Assembly (NCBI GenBank): GCA_030690245.1
Contig: JAUYGW010000081.1
Span: 1 to 15,419, forward strand
Direction: 5' to 3'
Source: Gallionella sp.
Lineage (GTDB): Bacteria; Pseudomonadota; Gammaproteobacteria; Burkholderiales; Gallionellaceae
Length of the DNA stretch: 15,419 nucleotides
The notes below the pieces were generated by a model. That model was not told the origin of the DNA. It did not search any database and saw only the letters and a list, made by a program, of their open reading frames with translations. Both the position numbers and the translations under genes were made by a program. Numbering within the stretch: position 1 is the first letter of the stretch; each line of letters begins with the position of its first letter. Positions 4,313 to 14,832 of the stretch are shown piece after piece.

Positions 4313-5028
4313 CCGTCGGCGGGCCGGTGGCCGCTATCAGCTGTCTTGGGATGCAAAGTCCATTTGTTGTGCCAGGCGGCGCGCACCAGATTCGGGTATT
4401 CGGGGCGGCCCAGGCTGCCGTTGTAGCGTCCCAGCGCACGATACAGGTCGCCCTTTTCGATATCCAGGTAATGGCGCAGGATGGTGCAACCGTAGCGCAG
4501 GTTGATGCGCAGGTGGAACAGGTTGTGTTCTTTGGCGCCGATCTCCTTTACCCAGAACGGCATCACCTGCATGTAGCCATGTGCGCCCGCGCCGGAAACC
4601 GCGTATTTCTTGAAACCGCTCTCCACTTCGATCAAGCCCAGCACCAGTTCAGGTTCAAGGCCGGCGCGCTTGGCTTCATAATGCACCGTGCTCAGGAAAT
4701 CAAGGCGCGACTCGGCATCGGGGATGCGTTTCCACAAGCGCCGCGACATCTCCTTCAGCCACTTATCCGCCTCATCCTGTGTGCCAAACGCCAGCTTGGG
4801 CGCGGCCTGGTCCGATACGCTGCGTTGCAGCACCGCACGGACACTGGCGGAAAGCGCCTCTTCCCGTTGCGCCCCGGCGAACGCGCCGGAAGCAGGCAGC
4901 ATTCCGGCGGCAAACAGCATGACCGCTGTGAGGATCGAGGAGCGAGGATTGAGGATCGAGCCAAAAGCGGAGCTGAGGGTTTTCCTCGCTCCTCGCTCCT
5001 CGCTCCTCGCTCCTGTTTTTTTAATCAT
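4309..5028 (-). CDS. Soluble-type lytic murein transglycosylase (SLT domain)
   Basis: A 239-residue exported enzyme expected to cleave peptidoglycan between MurNAc and GlcNAc with 1,6-anhydro product. The SLT domain covers about residues 112-215: catalytic Glu136 in IEVESGF, then [11 protein letters not shown] (148-158) and YNGS (202-205). I chose ATG 5028-5026 because it overlaps the proS stop as ATGA, implying translational coupling; no clear Shine-Dalgarno is present. Residues 5-33 are encoded by an 87-base block of opposed heptanucleotide repeats. Removing them would join MIKK directly to [11 protein letters not shown]...FAG, a normal signal peptide. Alternatively translation may begin at ATG 4920-4918, but that start has a pyrimidine-rich upstream region and no positive n-region. 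The family is firm, the N-terminus uncertain. Confidence 0.87.
4930..5014. repeat. Inverted pair of heptanucleotide repeat arrays inside the transglycosylase gene
   Basis: Two 31-base arrays face each other around a 23-base centre. Array one (4930-4960, plus strand) is four 7-mers, GAGGATC, GAGGAGC, GAGGATT, GAGGATC, plus GAG. Array two (4984-5014) is four exact CCTCGCT units plus CCT, the reverse complement of GAGGAGC-type units. Transcribed RNA could fold into a long imperfect hairpin. The block 4930-5016 equals 87 bases (29 codons), so it leaves the frame open. Similar GAGGAGC-type arrays are, from memory, dispersed in several proteobacterial genomes. Confidence 0.85.
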
Positions 5029-6844: not shown

Positions 6845-6875
6845 CCAAAAAGACAAAGCCCGCATTCGCGGGCCT
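6845..6875 (-). terminator. Intrinsic terminator after the FecR-domain gene
   Basis: On the minus strand a GCCCGC / GCGGGC stem with a GAAT loop (6873-6858) is followed by TTTGTCTTTTT. It begins about 33 bases after the TAG stop of the giant gene (6908-6906) and separates that operon from proS. No similar structure follows the exporter gene, consistent with co-transcription of the two genes. Confidence 0.85.
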
Positions 6876-6905: not shown

Positions 6906-9900
6906 CTAAGGAATCTGCGCCCCCTGTTTGAGTGCCGCTACACCGCTGACTATCGCGCCGCCATTATTGAAGCCATACATCATCCCCACACCCACACCGT
7001 TTGTACCCGTAAATGCCCCACTGATTCTCGCCTGAGTCGGAGCGGCTGCGCATCCTGCTCCAGAGCAAGTGGCAGTCAGCATGCCAGCGGCACTTATACT
7101 TCCCGTGGCTGCATCGAACATTGTACGTTGCTGAATGGGGATGCCCGTTCCGCTGGCAACCAGCGTCGTCGGGTTTGTCGCATTGGTGATGCCGACGCTT
7201 ACGCCCACATCGACTGTTTGAGCAGTAAAATTGGCTACCAAGCTTGCGCTGTTCAGTGTGCCGACATTGCCCAGATTGTCGGTTGGCGCAGTACCGCCTG
7301 CCAGCACATAGTTATGCGTGCCAGTGATTGGCAGCGCGACCGGCGCGGTCATGCTTGGTGTGGCGATCCAGTGCAGGCTGCTTGTTCCCAGCGCGCTGGG
7401 TGTGACAACTCCGGTGGTGCGATCAGTGATATCGATAGAGCCGCCATCCCAACGTCCCCAACTGATGCCGGTTACGGGGTCGGTACCCGACCCGCTGGCG
7501 GCAGCAGTTCCGATAGCCAACGTTGCGGAGCCATTGTTAACGCTGGTATTGTAATGGCCCAAACCAGAATCAAATGCCGTCACATTACCCGCAACTTCTG
7601 TTACCCGTGATGTATTGTTGAACCCGCCATCCAGGATCATGCCGCCGTTAAAAGTTGCCGCCGAAGAATCAAATGCCGAGATCGCCACCATGCGATAAGG
7701 TGTGGCGGTGTCGGCCGGTGCGTTTGCCACCAGCGCCACCGTCCCATTCACTGTTTCGACGGGTGCGCTATTGGAAGTGCCGTTGCCTGCACCGAATGCG
7801 CCTGATGCCTTGATCGTGCCGCTGGTTAACTGCCAGATGCCGGTCAGCTCATTCGCATTGGGGCCGTAGAAATGGCCGCTGGTCGCACCCACCGTACCCG
7901 TCGTTACGTTAACCGGGCTGGCCGTGTAACCTGCAGGTGCGGCATTTGCCGTCACGCTGCCGCTGAAGGCATTGGTGGCAATGGTGGCACTCAGCGACAG
8001 GTCGTTGAAATAGCCCACGAAACTGCCGGTATTTCGATCCATAACCTCAATGAAGGTTGCCAAGCCGTTCAATGTCCCCGTGGTGAAATTGGCGTTCAAG
8101 TCAACCCAACTGGAATACAGGCTGTATGGCGTGTTAGTCGTACTATCCTGTGCACCTCCGACCATCGAACCGGAGTAATAGCCATTTATGGCGTAGTTGC
8201 TGACAGGCATCGACATAGCCGGGGTGAGCAACATGCCGCCGGCGAATTCGCCGCTGGTGAACGGGCCGGTTGCGGTTGCCGGCGCAAGCCCGGCAGGTGT
8301 AGGCAACATGCGCCATTCGCCGAAATTGGAATATCTTGCGCTGTATGTCCCTGCGTAAGTGTCCACCGATACCGATTCGCCGGTCGCTGCGGTACCGTAA
8401 TAAACCCCCGTTTTGACTGGATCGGGTGTCAGATTAGGCACCGACGCGGTAACCCCGCCAGACAAGGATGCAGTGATTGGTACCCCGCCCGCCAGCCCCA
8501 CGCTAAGCGTGGTGGCCGGCTGCACCGCCAGGGTGCCAGACGTTCCAGCCGGGAATGCAACACTGACAGCGCCTCCCGTTATAACAGGGCCGGTTACTGT
8601 CGCCGACGGAGCCTGAACCGTTACCATATCGGATGCGGTAAAAGTGTTGGGAACCATCGGCATCGGCAACGGTGCATTCAATTGGTATTGGAACAAGGCG
8701 CCATTCAGGCCGCTGCCGGTCAACTGTCCCGAGATATAACCACTGCCTACTGTTGCGCCATCCATTGTTACATTCAGCGCATTCGCCAGTGTGGTTCCAG
8801 CATTTGCCCAGAAGCCATTCTTGCTGTAGTTGGTCCAGCTCAGCGGCGTACCGGTGCTGCTTGCCGTCCAGTTATGGCCATTCACACCGGTCAAGCCCAA
8901 GGCGATATCGACAGTCTGGCTGGTAAAGTTCACAGACAAACTTGCGCTGGACAAAGTGCCGGTCAAACCATTTTGATTGGTCGGAACCGTGCCGCCGTCA
9001 AGGGCGTAGGACATCGTGCCGAGCAGCACCTCAGGCAAATAAATAGGATCCAGCCCCGGGCCTTCTATCCAGTGGAATTGCCCGCCAAACGGTTGGCTGA
9101 AGTTGCTGGTCCGGCTACCCGTATCCCATGTGCCGAACTGAATTCCCGTTGCTGCATCCGGCGCTGCCTGACCGGTGCAAATGGTGCAGGCGATCGTGGT
9201 GGTGCTGGTTGCTCCCGCGCCGTTATCGGTGCTATAGCTGGTCAGCACACCTCCGGTTGTGGTTGTGGTATTGGCGGTTTGCGAGTTCCAGTTATAGCCG
9301 CCCCCTTCTGCCACCACAAATTTTCCGGTGGGAGCCGCTGTGCCATTTGCTACGGTTGCATTACCCGCCACGCCGTTGCGCGTCAGTGCTGCCACACCGG
9401 AAATGCTGGTGGTAGCGCCGCCAGCCGATGGCCATTCCTGAATGACGTAGTCCACAATCGCGCCGGCATAGTTTTGTCCGGTGAATGCGCCATTCAAGTA
9501 GCCGTAGGTGCTAACTGACAGATTGCTGCTGGTTACGGTCAAATAGCTGTTAAAGCCAGCACCTGTGCCGTTAATCACGCCCGCAGTCGAATTAGCCGTC
9601 CAGTTGGTTGCTCCCAGCGAAACGGATAGTGCAGCACTAACCGTTTGTGTGGTGAAGTTGGCAGCCAGGGTCAGCGAATTTAATGTGCCCGCCGTGCCGT
9701 ACTGATCTTTTGGGGCAGGCGCTACGCCACTCAACGTGTAGTTGAATACGCCCTGGACAGTGCCGCCGGTTGCCGCAGAGAGTATGGTTGGCGTATCCAG
9801 GTAGCCTTCCGGCGCAAAAGCCCAGCTTGAGCTGCTATGGCCGGTATTGATCTGCCCCGGCGCAAATATGTAAGTATAAACTTGTGAAATGGAAGGCACA

Positions 9901-12900
9901 TCGGTCCAGCGGCCAAACTGAATAGCGGTGGTCGCGAACGAAGTGGCATTGCCATTCACCGCTCCCGTCGCGCCCGGCAGTTGCACCGTCTCATTACCGC
10001 AATTAACACAACCATAATCCCAGCTAAACGAAGGTGTAGTGGCTGTTGGTGCGACATTCGCGGCAGCGGTCATGCTATTGCTGCCGTAATAATACATCGA
10101 GCCATAGTTGTTGCTGAGCGAAATTTCGAACGAAACATCGTTTTGAACGTAAGGCTGCGCCGTGATAGGTGGTGCCACCGTTGGTGCGGTCGCGGTATTA
10201 AATGCAACGATGCTCTGCACCATGTCGGTATGCACACTGCCAGCCGCCGCGACCGGATTAGCCCTGTTGAATAGCGCATAATCCACATAAGCACTGGAAG
10301 CGGTTGTTCCGGCAAAGTCCCCATACAGCCACGCGCTCCAGGTCCCCGCGCCGCAATCCGCTCCGCTGCAACTGACGGTTGTTGTCATGGCTGGCCAACT
10401 GTCGTTAAAGCCCGAATTAATTATCGGCATTGCGGTTTGATTGATTGCGAATACCTGATTTTTTGCACTGATATTCACAGGATCAGTTGTACTGAATGTG
10501 AATGTGGCGGTGGATGCAACCGTCTGCGCAGTAAAATTGGCGGACAGCGTTGCATTGGTGACCGTACCCACGTTGCCGAATGAATCGGTTGGTCTGGTGA
10601 AAGCGGATATGGTGTAGTTGGTCGTGCCTGCCAGAGATTGCACCAAGCTCACGCCCAATGTTTCCGGCACCATCTGCCCGATCACCCAGTGCGCGCTGGA
10701 AGCGCCAAGGTTGGTGGTGAATGGGGCAGCCGGTCCAGTAGCTGCCATATCGGTGACGGTTATGCCGCCGCCCTGCCAGCGCCCCATGTAGATGCTTGAA
10801 TCGGACGCAACATAAGTGTCTTGCGCAACCCCACCTGTAAACTTGATGTTGGCATTCAGGATTCCTTGCACGAGTAGCGTTTGATCATAGGTGCTGTAAC
10901 CTGCACTGCGCATTTCCACCAGATTCTTGTTTCCATCCAGGACATATTGCGTATTGAGCATTCCATAATTTGTATCCCATACCTCCAGCCAACCACCGGT
11001 AACCGGTTGGCCAGCCATAAGGTTATGAGACGCACCGGGGAGGCTTAAAATGTTCGGGTTGTTGTAGGCAGCAACCGGGGCATTGGTGGCAATAACGGAT
11101 GCCTGTACCTGAACGGTATTCGCTGCGGAAGGCGTGGGGCTGATCACCGCCGGATCGGTTTGTACAAATGCCGCAGCGGCATTGCTCGCCGCTGTCTGCG
11201 CTGCGGTAGCCTGGGCACTGGCAGTTGCCGCATCGGTGACGGCAGTGCCCGCCGCAGAGGCAGCAGTCGTCACGGCAGTGCCTGCAGCCGTTGCGGCTGC
11301 CTGCGCCGCAGCCAACTGGTTGGCTACTGCCGTTTGTGCGGCCAGCGCTGTCGCCTGCTCTGCCTGGGCGATGGCAAGTTCTTGCTGCGCTATGGTTAAT
11401 TGTGCCTGCGCGCCAGCCAGATCACCTGCCGCCTGCAATGTGGCTGCCTGTGTCGCCGCCGTTTGTGCTGCCGTTGCAGCAGCTTGCGCATTGGCTGCCG
11501 CGGTCTGGGCGGCAGTCACTTCTGACGGGGTTGCTGTCTGTGCAGTGGTGATGGTGGTGTTTTGCGTGTTCGCTGTGGCCAGGTCTGCATTCGCCGTGGT
11601 CAGGTTGGTGCTTGCGTTGGTCAATGCCGTAATGGCTGCACTTTGTGCCGTGGCCAGTGCCGTGTTTTGTGCGGCTACAGTCCCCGCCTCCGTCTGTACG
11701 GTGGTATTGGCGGTCTGCAATGCGCTGTTGGCGGATTGCACGGTAGTATTGGCCGGTCCTGCGGTGTTGTCGGCAAAGGTACCGCTTGCGGTGAACGCGG
11801 CCTGTGCGGCAGCGGCCTCGCTAGCCGCCGCCGTTGTGGTGGCCTGAACGGAAGCAGCATTGGCCGTTGCCGTTGCGGCATCCGCCGGCGTCAATGCGGT
11901 TGCCGCCGACACTGCCGTGCTTGCCGTGCCGACATCGGTGGTTGCCGTGGCGATCGCTGTAGTTGCAGGTGTGACGGGTACGGGTGCGATTGCCGCCAGT
12001 GTCGTATCGGCCGTTTGCGCGGCTGCTGCTGCAGCTGCAGCCGCATTCGACGCTGTCAGCGCGGCATCTGCCGCTGCTTGTGCTTGGGCGGCCGTCAGGC
12101 CATCTGTAACAGTCAGAACTTGTCCCGTGCTGGTAATCACCGTTCCAGCAGTAATGTCCACGGTTGTGCCACCCGTGGCGGCCACGGTAGTAAGTGTTGT
12201 CGTGGGTGCAGGTGGTGCCGCGACAACCGCAGTCGTCGCAGTCGTCGTGGCAGCGGGAGTTGTAGTTGCGGCAGGCGCATTGCCGATGGCTGGAGCCGTG
12301 GCATCCACTACCGCAGTTTCGCGGACAGGCACCGCTTCCTCTTGCGTGGTGGTGGCAACCGGAGCCGCTTCCACAGCACCGGTTTCTGTCGCCGCTTCAG
12401 CCTTGGCTTCCTCTTTCTTGCCTTCTTCCTTGTCGCCCTTGGCTGCTTTTTCTTCCTGTTTGGTCTCGGTTTTTTCTTCCTTTTCTTCTTTCTTTTCGGC
12501 TTTTGCTTCCGGTGTGGACGCCTCGGCCACGGTAAACACGTTGGTGTTGATGGGCTGTACCTGCGGCATCTGGTTCATCCCGCCGGCAAAGCCCATCTGG
12601 TTGGGTTGCACGAAAATTGTGCCCTTGTCGGTGGTCATGCTGGTCTCGCCGGTATTCACCTTGTTGTAGGCGCCACTCGGGGCGATCTGCGCCAGCGGAC
12701 TGCCCGGCGTGATCAGGAAGGTCTCATGATCCGTCCCGCGGATGCCGATGGTCGCCGCCGGGGTGGTGACCCTGTAATTCTGCTTGTTGATGCGGCCGAT
12801 CAGGCCGGTCACCGCTCGGAAGCCGCCCTTGAACAGGGAAAAGAAGCTCTTTTCGCTGCCGTCTTCCTTGCCGGCAAAGACGAACTGGTCGAACTTCAGT

Positions 12901-13160
12901 TGGGTGTCCGGGCGCACCGCGACAAAGCCGCCATCCTGCATCTTGATCTGCGCCGAGGCTTTCTGCGCGGAGGTCAGGGTGTCGCCTTCGTTGATTGCAT
13001 CACCCTTTTGCGCCATGCGGGTCTGCCCTGCCGGGTTGGTGATTTGCACCTTGCCATTGACGAACTGCACATGTCCGGCCACGGCGGCATAAGCTGAAGA
13101 GGCCGCCATAAAGCAAGCGACAGACAACCCCAGGCAAGCGAAAAATTTGTTAGTTTTCAT
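6906..13160 (-). CDS. Giant exported FecR-domain protein with five beta-rich modules; candidate Slam/T11SS substrate
   Basis: A 2084-residue exported protein. Residues 1-26 are a Sec signal peptide (Lys at 3 and 5, hydrophobic core, AYA-A cleavage); there is no lipobox. A FecR domain spans about 45-145 (DAINEGDTL, DGGFVAVRPDT, TTPAATIGIRGTDHE). Residues 213-256 are Lys/Glu-rich, 290-330 Ala/Thr/Pro-rich and about 354-664 an Ala/Thr/Gln-rich probable helical stalk. Five related beta-rich modules follow at about 694-985, 1003-1258, 1280-1496, 1584-1800 and 1822-2078. The fourth has a FYGPNANEL element (1764-1772) like transferrin-binding-protein-B barrels. The mature part has only eight Cys, in four close pairs. 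ATG 13160 has AAGGTG (13171-13166) upstream, 23 bases after the exporter gene. The FecR domain is clear. Cargo status and surface location are inferred; an autonomous adhesin is an alternative. Confidence 0.88.
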   Translation of the reverse strand: MKTNKFFACLGLSVACFMAASSAYAAVAGHVQFVNGKVQITNPAGQTRMAQKGDAINEGDTLTSAQKASAQIKMQDGGFVAVRPDTQLKFDQFVFAGKEDGSEKSFFSLFKGGFRAVTGLIGRINKQNYRVTTPAATIGIRGTDHETFLITPGSPLAQIAPSGAYNKVNTGETSMTTDKGTIFVQPNQMGFAGGMNQMPQVQPINTNVFTVAEASTPEAKAEKKEEKEEKTETKQEEKAAKGDKEEGKKEEAKAEAATETGAVEAAPVATTTQEEAVPVRETAVVDATAPAIGNAPAATTTPAATTTATTAVVAAPPAPTTTLTTVAATGGTTVDITAGTVITSTGQVLTVTDGLTAAQAQAAADAALTASNAAAAAAAAAQTADTTLAAIAPVPVTPATTAIATATTDVGTASTAVSAATALTPADAATATANAASVQATTTAAASEAAAAQAAFTASGTFADNTAGPANTTVQSANSALQTANTTVQTEAGTVAAQNTALATAQSAAITALTNASTNLTTANADLATANTQNTTITTAQTATPSEVTAAQTAAANAQAAATAAQTAATQAATLQAAGDLAGAQAQLTIAQQELAIAQAEQATALAAQTAVANQLAAAQAAATAAGTAVTTAASAAGTAVTDAATASAQATAAQTAASNAAAAFVQTDPAVISPTPSAANTVQVQASVIATNAPVAAYNNPNILSLPGASHNLMAGQPVTGGWLEVWDTNYGMLNTQYVLDGNKNLVEMRSAGYSTYDQTLLVQGILNANIKFTGGVAQDTYVASDSSIYMGRWQGGGITVTDMAATGPAAPFTTNLGASSAHWVIGQMVPETLGVSLVQSLAGTTNYTISAFTRPTDSFGNVGTVTNATLSANFTAQTVASTATFTFSTTDPVNISAKNQVFAINQTAMPIINSGFNDSWPAMTTTVSCSGADCGAGTWSAWLYGDFAGTTASSAYVDYALFNRANPVAAAGSVHTDMVQSIVAFNTATAPTVAPPITAQPYVQNDVSFEISLSNNYGSMYYYGSNSMTAAANVAPTATTPSFSWDYGCVNCGNETVQLPGATGAVNGNATSFATTAIQFGRWTDVPSISQVYTYIFAPGQINTGHSSSSWAFAPEGYLDTPTILSAATGGTVQGVFNYTLSGVAPAPKDQYGTAGTLNSLTLAANFTTQTVSAALSVSLGATNWTANSTAGVINGTGAGFNSYLTVTSSNLSVSTYGYLNGAFTGQNYAGAIVDYVIQEWPSAGGATTSISGVAALTRNGVAGNATVANGTAAPTGKFVVAEGGGYNWNSQTANTTTTTGGVLTSYSTDNGAGATSTTTIACTICTGQAAPDAATGIQFGTWDTGSRTSNFSQPFGGQFHWIEGPGLDPIYLPEVLLGTMSYALDGGTVPTNQNGLTGTLSSASLSVNFTSQTVDIALGLTGVNGHNWTASSTGTPLSWTNYSKNGFWANAGTTLANALNVTMDGATVGSGYISGQLTGSGLNGALFQYQLNAPLPMPMVPNTFTASDMVTVQAPSATVTGPVITGGAVSVAFPAGTSGTLAVQPATTLSVGLAGGVPITASLSGGVTASVPNLTPDPVKTGVYYGTAATGESVSVDTYAGTYSARYSNFGEWRMLPTPAGLAPATATGPFTSGEFAGGMLLTPAMSMPVSNYAINGYYSGSMVGGAQDSTTNTPYSLYSSWVDLNANFTTGTLNGLATFIEVMDRNTGSFVGYFNDLSLSATIATNAFSGSVTANAAPAGYTASPVNVTTGTVGATSGHFYGPNANELTGIWQLTSGTIKASGAFGAGNGTSNSAPVETVNGTVALVANAPADTATPYRMVAISAFDSSAATFNGGMILDGGFNNTSRVTEVAGNVTAFDSGLGHYNTSVNNGSATLAIGTAAASGSGTDPVTGISWGRWDGGSIDITDRTTGVVTPSALGTSSLHWIATPSMTAPVALPITGTHNYVLAGGTAPTDNLGNVGTLNSASLVANFTAQTVDVGVSVGITNATNPTTLVASGTGIPIQQRTMFDAATGSISAAGMLTATCSGAGCAAAPTQARISGAFTGTNGVGVGMMYGFNNGGAIVSGVAALKQGAQIP
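6927..11081 (-). repeat. Five tandem protein modules in the giant FecR-domain gene
   Basis: Units lie at about 11081-10206, 10154-9387, 9323-8673, 8411-7761 and 7697-6927. Units 1, 2, 3 and 5 share an order of signatures: a front part ending in G-R/T-W (GRW, GRW, GTW, GRW), usually an HW pair, Y-x-L/I, a PTD/PTN-G-x-x-GT turn, a strand of A/S-x-L-x-x-NFT-x-QTV form, and G-x-F/L-x-G followed by a Tyr. Unit 4 is divergent but keeps NFTTGTLNGL and G-x-F-x-G. Paired Cys occur in units 1 and 5 as CX4C and in units 2 and 3 as CX2C. DNA identity between units is low, so the duplications are old. Confidence 0.75.
11169..12101 (-). other. Ala/Thr/Gln-rich stalk-coding segment
   Basis: Encodes residues about 354-664 of the giant protein. 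Composition is dominated by Ala, Thr and Gln with recurring AQTA, ANTTVQ and TAA words, including one run of nine Ala (373-381). There are no Cys or Trp and very few aromatic residues. It probably forms a long helix or coiled-coil spacer between the FecR domain and the beta modules. Its repetitive GC-rich DNA creates long open frames on the opposite strand that I regard as artefacts. Confidence 0.7.
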
Positions 13161-13183
13161 GATGGCACCTTACACGAAAATGA

Positions 13184-14773
13184 TTATCTGAAATCGCGGC
13201 GGATGGTCAGCGAAATGTCCGTGCGATCGAAACTATATAAAGAGATGTTGGAGTTCTTCCTGGAAAAGGCAACCTGAGGCTTGACCGACCAGAGCTTGTC
13301 CAGGCGCCAGTTTGCCGCCACAGTCAGGTCATAGAGCTTTTCGCTGCGATTGGACATGATCAGGTTGTTCAGGTTGCCGTAGTTCGCGGATTGCCAGCCC
13401 AGGCTCGCAAGCCCATCCAGTTGCTCGTTAAAAGCCGCCTGTCCGCCGACCCGCAATCCTTCAAAGCGTTTCTTGCCGTCGGTGCGGCCGCCGTTGGGCA
13501 GGCCGGCAGAGACGACCGGCGCAACGTCCAGTTCCTTGCCGGCATAAAGGCTGGCGAACAGGGCCTGCTTGCCTTCTGCCATGATATGCACCCATGCGAC
13601 CCCTGCCACCACCTGATCGGTATCACCCTCGATGCGTGCATCTGTTGTCGGCGAGGTGGGCGGAAAGCCTGCCGCCCTGCTCTCGCCATACTGCATGAAT
13701 GCGCTCATCTGGTTGGACGGGCTGAAAACATGTTGCCATTCCGCGCCTAGCCCGATCAAATCCCGGCGCATGGAGTTGGCGGTGTAATACTGTCCGCCGG
13801 TCAACGACAGTTTGTAGGTATTCTGCTCTTCGGCATACATCACGCCGAAGCGGGCATCTATGCTCAGTGTGTCATAGGCGGTCTGGGTCATATTACCGTG
13901 CTGGCGCAAATCCGCTCCCGCAAACACGCCCCAGTTCGCATTGAGGTTGTGGCTGATTTCTCCCCCCGCGTTGATTCCTTCATAAGCACCCGTGAGTTTG
14001 GCGGCAGGCGGCAGCTGGTTTCCCGGAAATATGCCGCTCCACGGGGAGGCGGGGGCAAACGTAAAAGTTTGGGTGCTGCTATTGGCGATGTTGCTGTCGT
14101 GCCCCGCCACGCCCTCGACATAACCTGCGATGCGTGTTTGCTTGGCCTGTTCAAATGCGGCAATCGCATCCAGATATTTCTGGATGGTGATGCGCGCCGC
14201 CTCGGGCGGGTTTTGTTTCAATACTTCCAGAAATTCTGTTTGGGCACGCGGCAGGTCGCCGAGCTGGTAATAGGCACGCCCCATGTCCAGCCGCGCACCG
14301 GCAAAATTCGGGTCCACCGCCAGCACCCGTTCGAAGGCGAGCGTTGCCTTGTCAGGTTTGCCGCTGTCCAGCGCGGCGATGCCGATCAGGTAATCGAAAC
14401 GCACTTCCCCGGAACGCTCGAACTCCAGCGGCTCCAGCAAGGCGTAAGCATCGGCAGGCTTGCCGTTCTTCATCATCTCTTCTGCATCCTTGATGGGCTT
14501 TTCGCGCGCTTCAAGCGCTGCCAGCTTCCTGGCTTCCGCCTCGGCGCGTTGGCGCACCTCCTGTTCGGCTTTGATGCGCGCTTCTGCTTCGCGCTGCGCC
14601 TGCAAGGCGCGCGCATCAGGCTTGACGGCTTTTTTGACGGCAGGCTTGGCCTTTTTGGTTACGGCCTTCTTGGCCTTGCCGTGCGTCACTTCGGGTTCAG
14701 CCCCCTGTGCAACAGGGCCTGTCGCCATCAAGGCTCCGAATACTCCGCAACACACCCATTGCCCTAGCTTCAT
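13184..14773 (-). CDS. Slam-like outer-membrane barrel protein with N-terminal TPR (T11SS-type exporter)
   Basis: A 529-residue exported protein. Residues 1-24 are a signal peptide (probable AQG-AE cleavage). Residues 33-51 are Lys/Ala-rich and 52-92 a charged coiled coil. TPR-like repeats lie at about 95-205 (LAVDPNFAGARLDMGRAYYQ), with the family-typical QNPP...IQKYLDAI. From about 215 an outer-membrane barrel begins (EGVAGHDSNIA) and ends in a beta-signal, ISLTIRRDFR, with terminal aromatic-Arg. The layout fits the surface lipoprotein assembly modifier group (DUF560), which moves substrates across the outer membrane. Start ATG 14773-14771 is preferred over GTG 14812 because a GGGGGG ribosome-binding site lies 8 bases upstream and a signal peptide begins there. 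The next gene is 23 bases downstream with no terminator between. A generic TPR-porin is the alternative. Confidence 0.75.
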   Translation of the reverse strand: MKLGQWVCCGVFGALMATGPVAQGAEPEVTHGKAKKAVTKKAKPAVKKAVKPDARALQAQREAEARIKAEQEVRQRAEAEARKLAALEAREKPIKDAEEMMKNGKPADAYALLEPLEFERSGEVRFDYLIGIAALDSGKPDKATLAFERVLAVDPNFAGARLDMGRAYYQLGDLPRAQTEFLEVLKQNPPEAARITIQKYLDAIAAFEQAKQTRIAGYVEGVAGHDSNIANSSTQTFTFAPASPWSGIFPGNQLPPAAKLTGAYEGINAGGEISHNLNANWGVFAGADLRQHGNMTQTAYDTLSIDARFGVMYAEEQNTYKLSLTGGQYYTANSMRRDLIGLGAEWQHVFSPSNQMSAFMQYGESRAAGFPPTSPTTDARIEGDTDQVVAGVAWVHIMAEGKQALFASLYAGKELDVAPVVSAGLPNGGRTDGKKRFEGLRVGGQAAFNEQLDGLASLGWQSANYGNLNNLIMSNRSEKLYDLTVAANWRLDKLWSVKPQVAFSRKNSNISLYSFDRTDISLTIRRDFR

Positions 14774-14803: not shown

Positions 14804-14832
14804 AGTATCCACCCCTTGCTTGGCATGGTCAA
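14804..14832 (-). promoter_or_regulatory. Predicted promoter of the exporter-FecR operon
   Basis: On the minus strand TTGACC (14832-14827, 5 of 6 consensus bases), a 17-bp spacer and GATACT (14809-14804, 4 of 6). The expected start near 14797 leaves a leader of about 24 nt before the ATG at 14773. It lies between the radC stop and the exporter gene, so the operon can be transcribed apart from radC. Confidence 0.5.

Follow-up and report, generated by a model that had tools for sequence, protein, structure and literature searches.

A FecR-domain protein as the near-constant partner of a Slam-like exporter branch, and a candidate means of retaining lipid-free cargo at the cell surface of Gallionellaceae

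We analyzed a 15,419-nucleotide stretch of DNA from Gallionella sp. (contig JAUYGW010000081.1 of assembly GCA_030690245.1; "the window"), which is one whole contig (G000:C134) of a Gallionellaceae metagenome genome that is 82.5% complete. Its minus strand carries an exporter gene (P0002; 13184..14773, 529 amino acids) for a tetratricopeptide repeat (TPR) protein with an outer-membrane beta-barrel of the SlipAM/DUF560 kind, like that of Slam and the type 11 secretion system (T11SS). Downstream of it, after a gap of 23 nucleotides (13161-13183), lies the gene of an exported multidomain protein of 2084 amino acids (P0001; 6906..13160), here called the giant. A preliminary description of this DNA had reported both open reading frames (ORFs) and their spacing, and we confirmed them. 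We found that this exporter branch has a near-constant partner in the FecR domain and not in the TbpB barrel. On balance, we favor the reading that the locus is a type 11 (Slam/DUF560) surface-display pair in which a FecR/retention plug tethers a non-lipidated cargo. The gene pair, its domains, fold predictions for the exporter and a cargo homolog, the FecR partnership, and the co-divergence of the partners were observed, and it is from these that we infer translocation, topology, and anchoring.

The partnership was examined across genomes, starting with 83 regions that surround exporter-like matches scoring roughly 70 bits and up. We left out eight partial matches that reached 70 bits (two in G122 and one each in G141, G005, G132, G061:C1, G072, and G107) and weaker matches, mostly TPR-only. 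A downstream ORF was available for 101 exporters, counting that of the window; FecR was encoded directly downstream and on the same strand in 90 of them (75/85 in the family set and 15/16 in the class set) and was second in 3. Only 13 of 1166 ORFs lying more than two genes from an exporter encoded FecR, and the pairing is therefore beyond chance. Whether the two genes occur independently of each other was a question raised by the preliminary description; they were found to co-occur. Our FecR hidden Markov model (HMM) was built from the partners, including that of the window, so Pfam served as the independent check and confirmed FecR in 27/29, 27/27, and 15/16 of the scanned partners. Outside the 101 were L048 and L088, missed by the ORF caller, and L067 and L069, at contig ends. 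A six-frame search found FecR beside L048, L088, and L067, and also beside L138, which counts as a miss in the 90/101. Phylum-wide, FecR lay within about 1.5 kb in 23 of 29 new loci, 20 of them on the same strand; one of the 29, L164, comes from a genome that the class set also includes. FecR genes are not limited to exporter loci: at least one was present in 130 of 150 family genomes.

A class-wide search with SlipAM separated two groups of exporters. It covered 40 stretches from 45 rows, omitting the window, the second G298 piece, and the three short or degraded matches G283, G288, and G298:734576. FecR was present in 22 of the 27 weaker matches, one of which (L154) looks spurious. It was found in none of the 13 matches of at least 73 bits, from seven genomes, which we call canonical Slams; this count covers the fetched stretches, one of them a 3.1-kb contig. 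None of the ORFs of these 13 loci was found by phmmer with the window exporter, implying that the two exporter branches are distant.

The exporter matched SlipAM (PF04575) with 28.9 bits at a cut-off of 22, along with TPR families. Across the exporter alignment, SlipAM was matched at E<=0.001 by 51 of 54 members, P0002 included, while other barrel families matched 5, 4, and 1 members and the Pfam TPR_Slam model just 1. The AlphaFold2 model (predicted local distance difference test score of 83.6) has helices at residues 57-210 (14144..14605, minus strand), a long helix and a TPR superhelix that would be periplasmic, with the TPR Pfam matches within residues 128-191. Residues 213-528 (13190..14137, minus strand) form a predicted 14-stranded barrel. 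An N-terminal TPR domain followed by a C-terminal 14-strand barrel is the T11SS/Slam architecture. The exporter had previously been described as a TPR protein with a Slam/DUF560-like barrel, a view to be given up if no Slam/DUF560 match was found; the match exists, and the profile and predicted fold agree with that view. No Slam structure was among the solved matches listed for the exporter, which is uninformative either way.

The giant contains FecR (PF04773; 29.3 bits, cut-off of 24) and TbpB_B_D (PF01298; 42.8 bits, cut-off of 26). All of its parts are encoded on the minus strand. Residues 1-26 (13083..13160), read by eye, resemble a signal peptide that ends near AYA-AVAG and has no lipobox cysteine at its end. 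They are followed by a FecR/retention-module-like domain (residues 27-215; 12516..13082), the proposed periplasmic anchor docked on the exporter, and by a charged linker and an Ala/Thr-rich stretch (residues 216-735; 10956..12515). An HMM of partner C-termini then matched TbpB-like units 1 (residues 740-988; 10197..10943; E of 2.7e-27), 2 (1030-1261; 9378..10073; 6.7e-17), 3 (1297-1498; 8667..9272; 7.2e-20), and 5, at the C-terminus (1852-2079; 6924..7607; 1.5e-82); unit 5 is itself among the 29 training rows of this HMM. The barrel part of unit 4 (residues 1662-1791; 7788..8177) is where the Pfam TbpB_B_D match lies. Units 1, 2, 3, and 5 each have one close Cys pair (CX2C or CX4C), which may be a disulfide or a metal site, and unit 4 has none. 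The Pfam scan of the giant contained no RTX family. TbpB-type small barrels on a non-lipidated chain, as proposed earlier, are thus what we found. A lipobox-like string occurs in 11 of 90 partners, mostly within the hydrophobic stretch; that in the 1324-amino-acid partner of L053 may be a real site.

Composition differs between the FecR domain and the sequence after it. Residues 281-744 (window 10929-12320) are 464 consecutive residues without Lys or Arg; the partners of L039 and L040 have such runs of 476 and 472 residues. Lys plus Arg falls from 9.9% in the FecR domain to 2.4% after it, and the content is lower beyond the domain in 44 of 45 partners. This break suggests different compartments for the domain and the remainder. 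A compact homolog was modeled, and its C-terminal fold resembles those of TbpB, NHBA, fHbp, and haemophilin; TbpB, fHbp, and haemophilin are known T11SS cargos. The cargo profile, searched by sequence against solved structures, gave just one unrelated match (E of 0.0052), so that the TbpB likeness comes from structure and Pfam. The N-terminus of the homolog folds like FecR anti-sigma domains, with PupR closest, and also like the adhesin retention (surface-anchoring) domain 5ix9 (profile E of 2.1e-7).

We then compared the divergence of the exporters with that of their partners. For the 80 of 90 pairs with a recognizable core motif, exporter and FecR distances correlated at 0.94. Three tandem loci had both pairs tested: the nearest exporter and the nearest FecR domain came from one and the same other locus in 4 of 6 systems and fell in the same class in 6 of 6. 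Partial correlations with the exporter, computed for 44 long partners, were 0.78 (FecR) and 0.22 (C-terminal barrel). The window and L035 illustrate this pattern. Their exporters are 96% identical and the first 293 residues of the giant are 87% identical, while the rest of the cargo aligns in parts only, at 32-50%, and the proteins differ by 931 residues (2084 versus 1153). Judging from the alignment, the cargo beyond the FecR domain appears to have been either exchanged or heavily diverged. The N-terminal FecR domain is probably the exporter's partner.

What the FecR domain is joined to varies widely. Complete partners span 225 to 2949 amino acids. FecR as a peculiarity of the giant can be ruled out because it is near-constant among exporter partners, and the earlier proposal that a FecR-bearing giant is an unusual class did not hold. 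Of 69 complete Gallionellaceae partners, 41 have a C-terminal barrel; another 13, all short, come from loci where an IgGFc_binding-like gene immediately precedes the exporter gene, and the other 15 have neither feature. These barrel counts rest on our own HMM, as Pfam TbpB_B_D detects just 2/29 and 2/16 of those partners. With 28 of 69 partners lacking a recognized barrel, the TbpB barrel is ruled out as the invariant partner, and anchoring fused cargo cannot be the sole role of FecR. The 13 IgGFc_binding-like proteins (L051, L053, L055-L058, L060, L062, L065, L066, L078, L080, and L082) have lipobox-like N-termini and are candidate separate cargo. They are complementary to the barrel (13/28 versus 0/41; Fisher, 1e-6), which we do not count as independent evidence because the 13 loci form one exporter clade. 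In L112, L113, L114, L116, and L117, also one exporter clade, the exporter, a short FecR protein, and a CHASE2 adenylate/guanylate cyclase are encoded in a row. In the exporter tree, which is quick, has several long branches, and has no inferred root, the short-FecR clade is nested among barrel loci, so FecR was kept where the barrel was probably lost.

Several other arrangements were seen. In L090, L092, L096, L097, and L101, the FecR-barrel gene is followed by one for a GT41-like (OGT/SPINDLY-like) glycosyltransferase, and the cargo may be modified there. Each of the labels IgGFc, CHASE2, and GT41 reflects similarity to a single query. Pfam was applied to the neighbors in L066 and L080 (IgGFc), L112 (CHASE2), and L090 and L097 (GT41), and it confirmed CHASE2 in L112 and GT41 in L090 and L097. 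A C-terminal Phe, resembling an outer-membrane protein signal, ends 19 of 34 barrel-less FecR partners (e.g., L066:6372-7196 and L053:4384-5208). In L105, L106, and L107, a short protein is encoded between the exporter and FecR genes; that of L106 carries Peptidase_S74, an intramolecular chaperone, which is also present in 3 of 16 scanned FecR partners. In L089:6377-11196, a collagen-like repeat and a run of unknown residues close a short FecR ORF, which is followed by a separate 1351-amino-acid barrel ORF; this is either a split gene or an assembly gap.

Under our model, the exporter and the giant would both reach the periplasm by Sec. The exporter would be inserted into the outer membrane by its barrel, leaving its TPR domain periplasmic. 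The giant's TbpB-like units, at its C-terminal end, would pass through the barrel and fold outside, as known T11SS cargos do. With no lipid anchor on the giant, its N-terminal FecR/retention-like domain may fold in the periplasm, dock on the exporter, and plug the pore or tether the chain; this would keep the stalk, poor in Lys and Arg, and the five TbpB-like units on display at the surface. This would be the retention strategy of LapA-type adhesins set on a different exporter. What the units bind is a matter of guesses, such as adhesion or metal, heme, or mineral binding. The barrel-less partners mean that the FecR domain must also act without fused cargo. We therefore extend the model more tentatively, giving it somewhat less than an even chance: a large environmental T11SS branch would work by retention, its defining partner being a FecR/LapA-type module that docks on the TPR domain and takes the place of the lipid anchor. 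In side branches the module alone would serve either a CHASE2 cyclase, as in 5 loci, or, as in 13 loci with an IgGFc_binding-like gene, a separate cargo that is putatively a lipoprotein. Of the mechanism in the preliminary description, T11SS-type export fits, and the giant remains the best candidate substrate, with export itself proposed by homology. The likeness of its N-terminus to an adhesin retention domain had gone unnoticed and changes the likely mechanism.

The co-divergence data would look the same if FecR were an N-terminal recognition signal read by the TPR domain, after which it is exported or cleaved and the giant is released or binds the surface by itself. Soluble, unlipidated T11SS cargo is known (PMC12282271). 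We consider this account unlikely, at roughly one chance in five, since the FecR domain resembles an anchoring module of adhesins in fold and profile, and the change in composition where it ends suggests different compartments. Less probable still is a sensing system, in which a receptor complex of the outer membrane, made up of the barrel and the FecR protein, would signal inward and the TbpB-like units would bind the ligand. FecR signals inward together with FecA, the FecR fold is closest to PupR, and a CHASE2 cyclase follows the short FecR in five loci. Clusters of a CHASE2 cyclase, a FecR outer-membrane protein, and a TPR protein are described in Campylobacterota (PMC9239204), as is a Lysobacter cluster with a sigma factor, FecR regulator, TonB receptor, TbpB, and Slam (PMC11233812). 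However, the cyclase loci are a single exporter clade, the giant starts with a signal peptide and not an anti-sigma part, its C-terminus is cargo-like, and no cyclase, kinase, or sigma gene was seen beside the window pair. Finally, a polysaccharide-type export porin (BcsC/PelB/PgaA kind), with the giant as a matrix protein leaving by another route, is very improbable: the top Foldseek matches of the exporter do include BcsC (2.0e-12) and PelB (1.1e-10), but these alignments have template modeling (TM) scores of about 0.3 and root mean square deviations (rmsd) of 12.6-16.5, the barrel has 14 predicted strands and those of BcsC and PgaA have 16, SlipAM is the main barrel family, and no glycan-synthesis gene was seen beside the exporter in the window.

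Several observations weigh against the retention model. FecR lies upstream in L087 and L095, the six-frame search found none at L052, L061, L069 (with only about 200 bases downstream), L071, L086, and L104, and 6 of the 29 phylum loci have no FecR neighbor. The 28 barrel-less partners belong here as well. Shared ancestry inflates distance correlations, and low Lys/Arg would suit any surface protein. The Foldseek TM score to TbpB is low (0.15-0.18 of the homolog model, rmsd of about 18), and in VIA superpositions across both lobes (rmsd of about 16), single lobes fit and the arrangement does not. The giant has no retention_LapA match at E<=10, and phmmer of its own FecR domain against 5ix9 gave just E of 0.066, so the retention link comes from relatives and the homolog model. 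The single retention_LapA score shown is 32.9 bits, under the curated 50. The region matches Lsa33 and LipL45, two surface proteins of Leptospira, about equally well, and the retention label is therefore not an exclusive one. LapG (PF06035) had no match in the 82.5%-complete genome of the window, and the LapG-type T/A/P-AAG motif occurs within residues 151-330 of just 9 of 90 partners. Release of the LapG type is thus unsupported.

Within the window, the exporter and giant genes sit between radC and proS. The neighbors, by Pfam, are RadC, ProS, SLT, UPF0114, and a thioredoxin-like protein; another, outside the Pfam scan, reads as ribonucleotide reductase. The SlipAM, FecR, and TbpB_B_D matches of this pair were the only ones found in the 82.5%-complete genome. 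The nearest of three named loci is that of Candidatus Ferrigenium altingense, with a 96% identical exporter. An alternative GTG start, reading to 14812, is possible for the exporter; relatives align from the ATG. The shared promoter and single terminator proposed earlier are both plausible as consensus matches. The candidate promoter (TTGACC-17-GATACT; 14804..14832, minus strand) matches 9 of 12 consensus positions, and the candidate terminator (6856..6875, minus strand) is an 8-pair stem with a T-rich tail just past the stop of the giant. Promoter-like sites numbered 12 versus 6.1±2.7 in shuffles, as consensus matches only, and terminator-like sites 18 versus 20.0±4.9. A perfect 7-base tandem repeat (TCCTCGC, 4.6 copies; 4983-5014) lies near the start of the lytic transglycosylase gene.

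Among known systems, the pair resembles T11SS/Slam (DUF560, PF04575; clusters 1 and 3 of Grossman et al.) in that the gene of a TPR and SlipAM barrel protein adjoins that of a TbpB-barrel protein. It differs in that the partner starts with a FecR/retention-like domain without a lipobox and has up to five TbpB-like units, and in that FecR and not the barrel is near-constant. PMC12282271 describes lipidated and soluble T11SS cargos as well as multi-barrel and helical architectures, and states that no cargo is known or predicted for most outer-membrane proteins of the T11SS; nine of ten DUF560 clusters hold no characterized protein (PMC8406197). The main texts of these two papers do not contain the word FecR. 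The one Slam-FecR neighborhood seen in print is the Lysobacter iron cluster, where the FecR-family protein is a signaling regulator beside a sigma factor and not a cargo (PMC11233812). A near-constant FecR partner gives an uncharacterized environmental branch a testable cognate protein and suggests how unlipidated cargo could remain on the cell.

Like LapA-type adhesins, the giant is a large protein, putatively at the surface, with an N-terminal all-beta domain that may be an anchor and is expected to be periplasmic, and that has, in the homolog model, a 5ix9-like fold; unlike them, it is paired with a SlipAM barrel and has no RTX match. N-terminal retention is described for the type 1 secretion system and type Vb (PMC13090378), and if the extended model is true, T11SS would be a further route that uses it. 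We found no literature joining retention modules with FecR or T11SS among open-license papers, supplements aside. The FecR domain (PF04773 in the giant, PupR fold in the homolog) is shared with FecR/PupR anti-sigma regulators. The giant begins with a signal peptide where these have their anti-sigma part, neither a sigma factor nor a TonB receptor was seen among its neighbors, and its FecR domain is fused to a putatively exported multi-barrel chain. The CHASE2/FecR/TPR clusters and Sinorhizobium meliloti SMc02177-NsrA likewise bring together an outer-membrane protein of the TPR or barrel kind and a FecR protein (the NsrA barrel is at residues 600-1200; PMC7529298); five relatives' loci carry the CHASE2 cyclase and the window pair does not. 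The S-layer protein NpdA was dropped as a relative, being described as without conserved domains and having its gene near those of type 2 secretion (PMC10765051). Slam export, LapA retention, and FecR signaling would be linked here through one periplasmic fold. In iron oxidizers, the FecR partner flags giant and variable proteins, putatively of the surface, that may come into contact with minerals or neighbors. Taken together, the FecR-partnered T11SS is a variant of a known secretion type and not a separate category, and it suggests a lipid-free fastening of exported proteins to the cell surface in iron oxidizers and many relatives.

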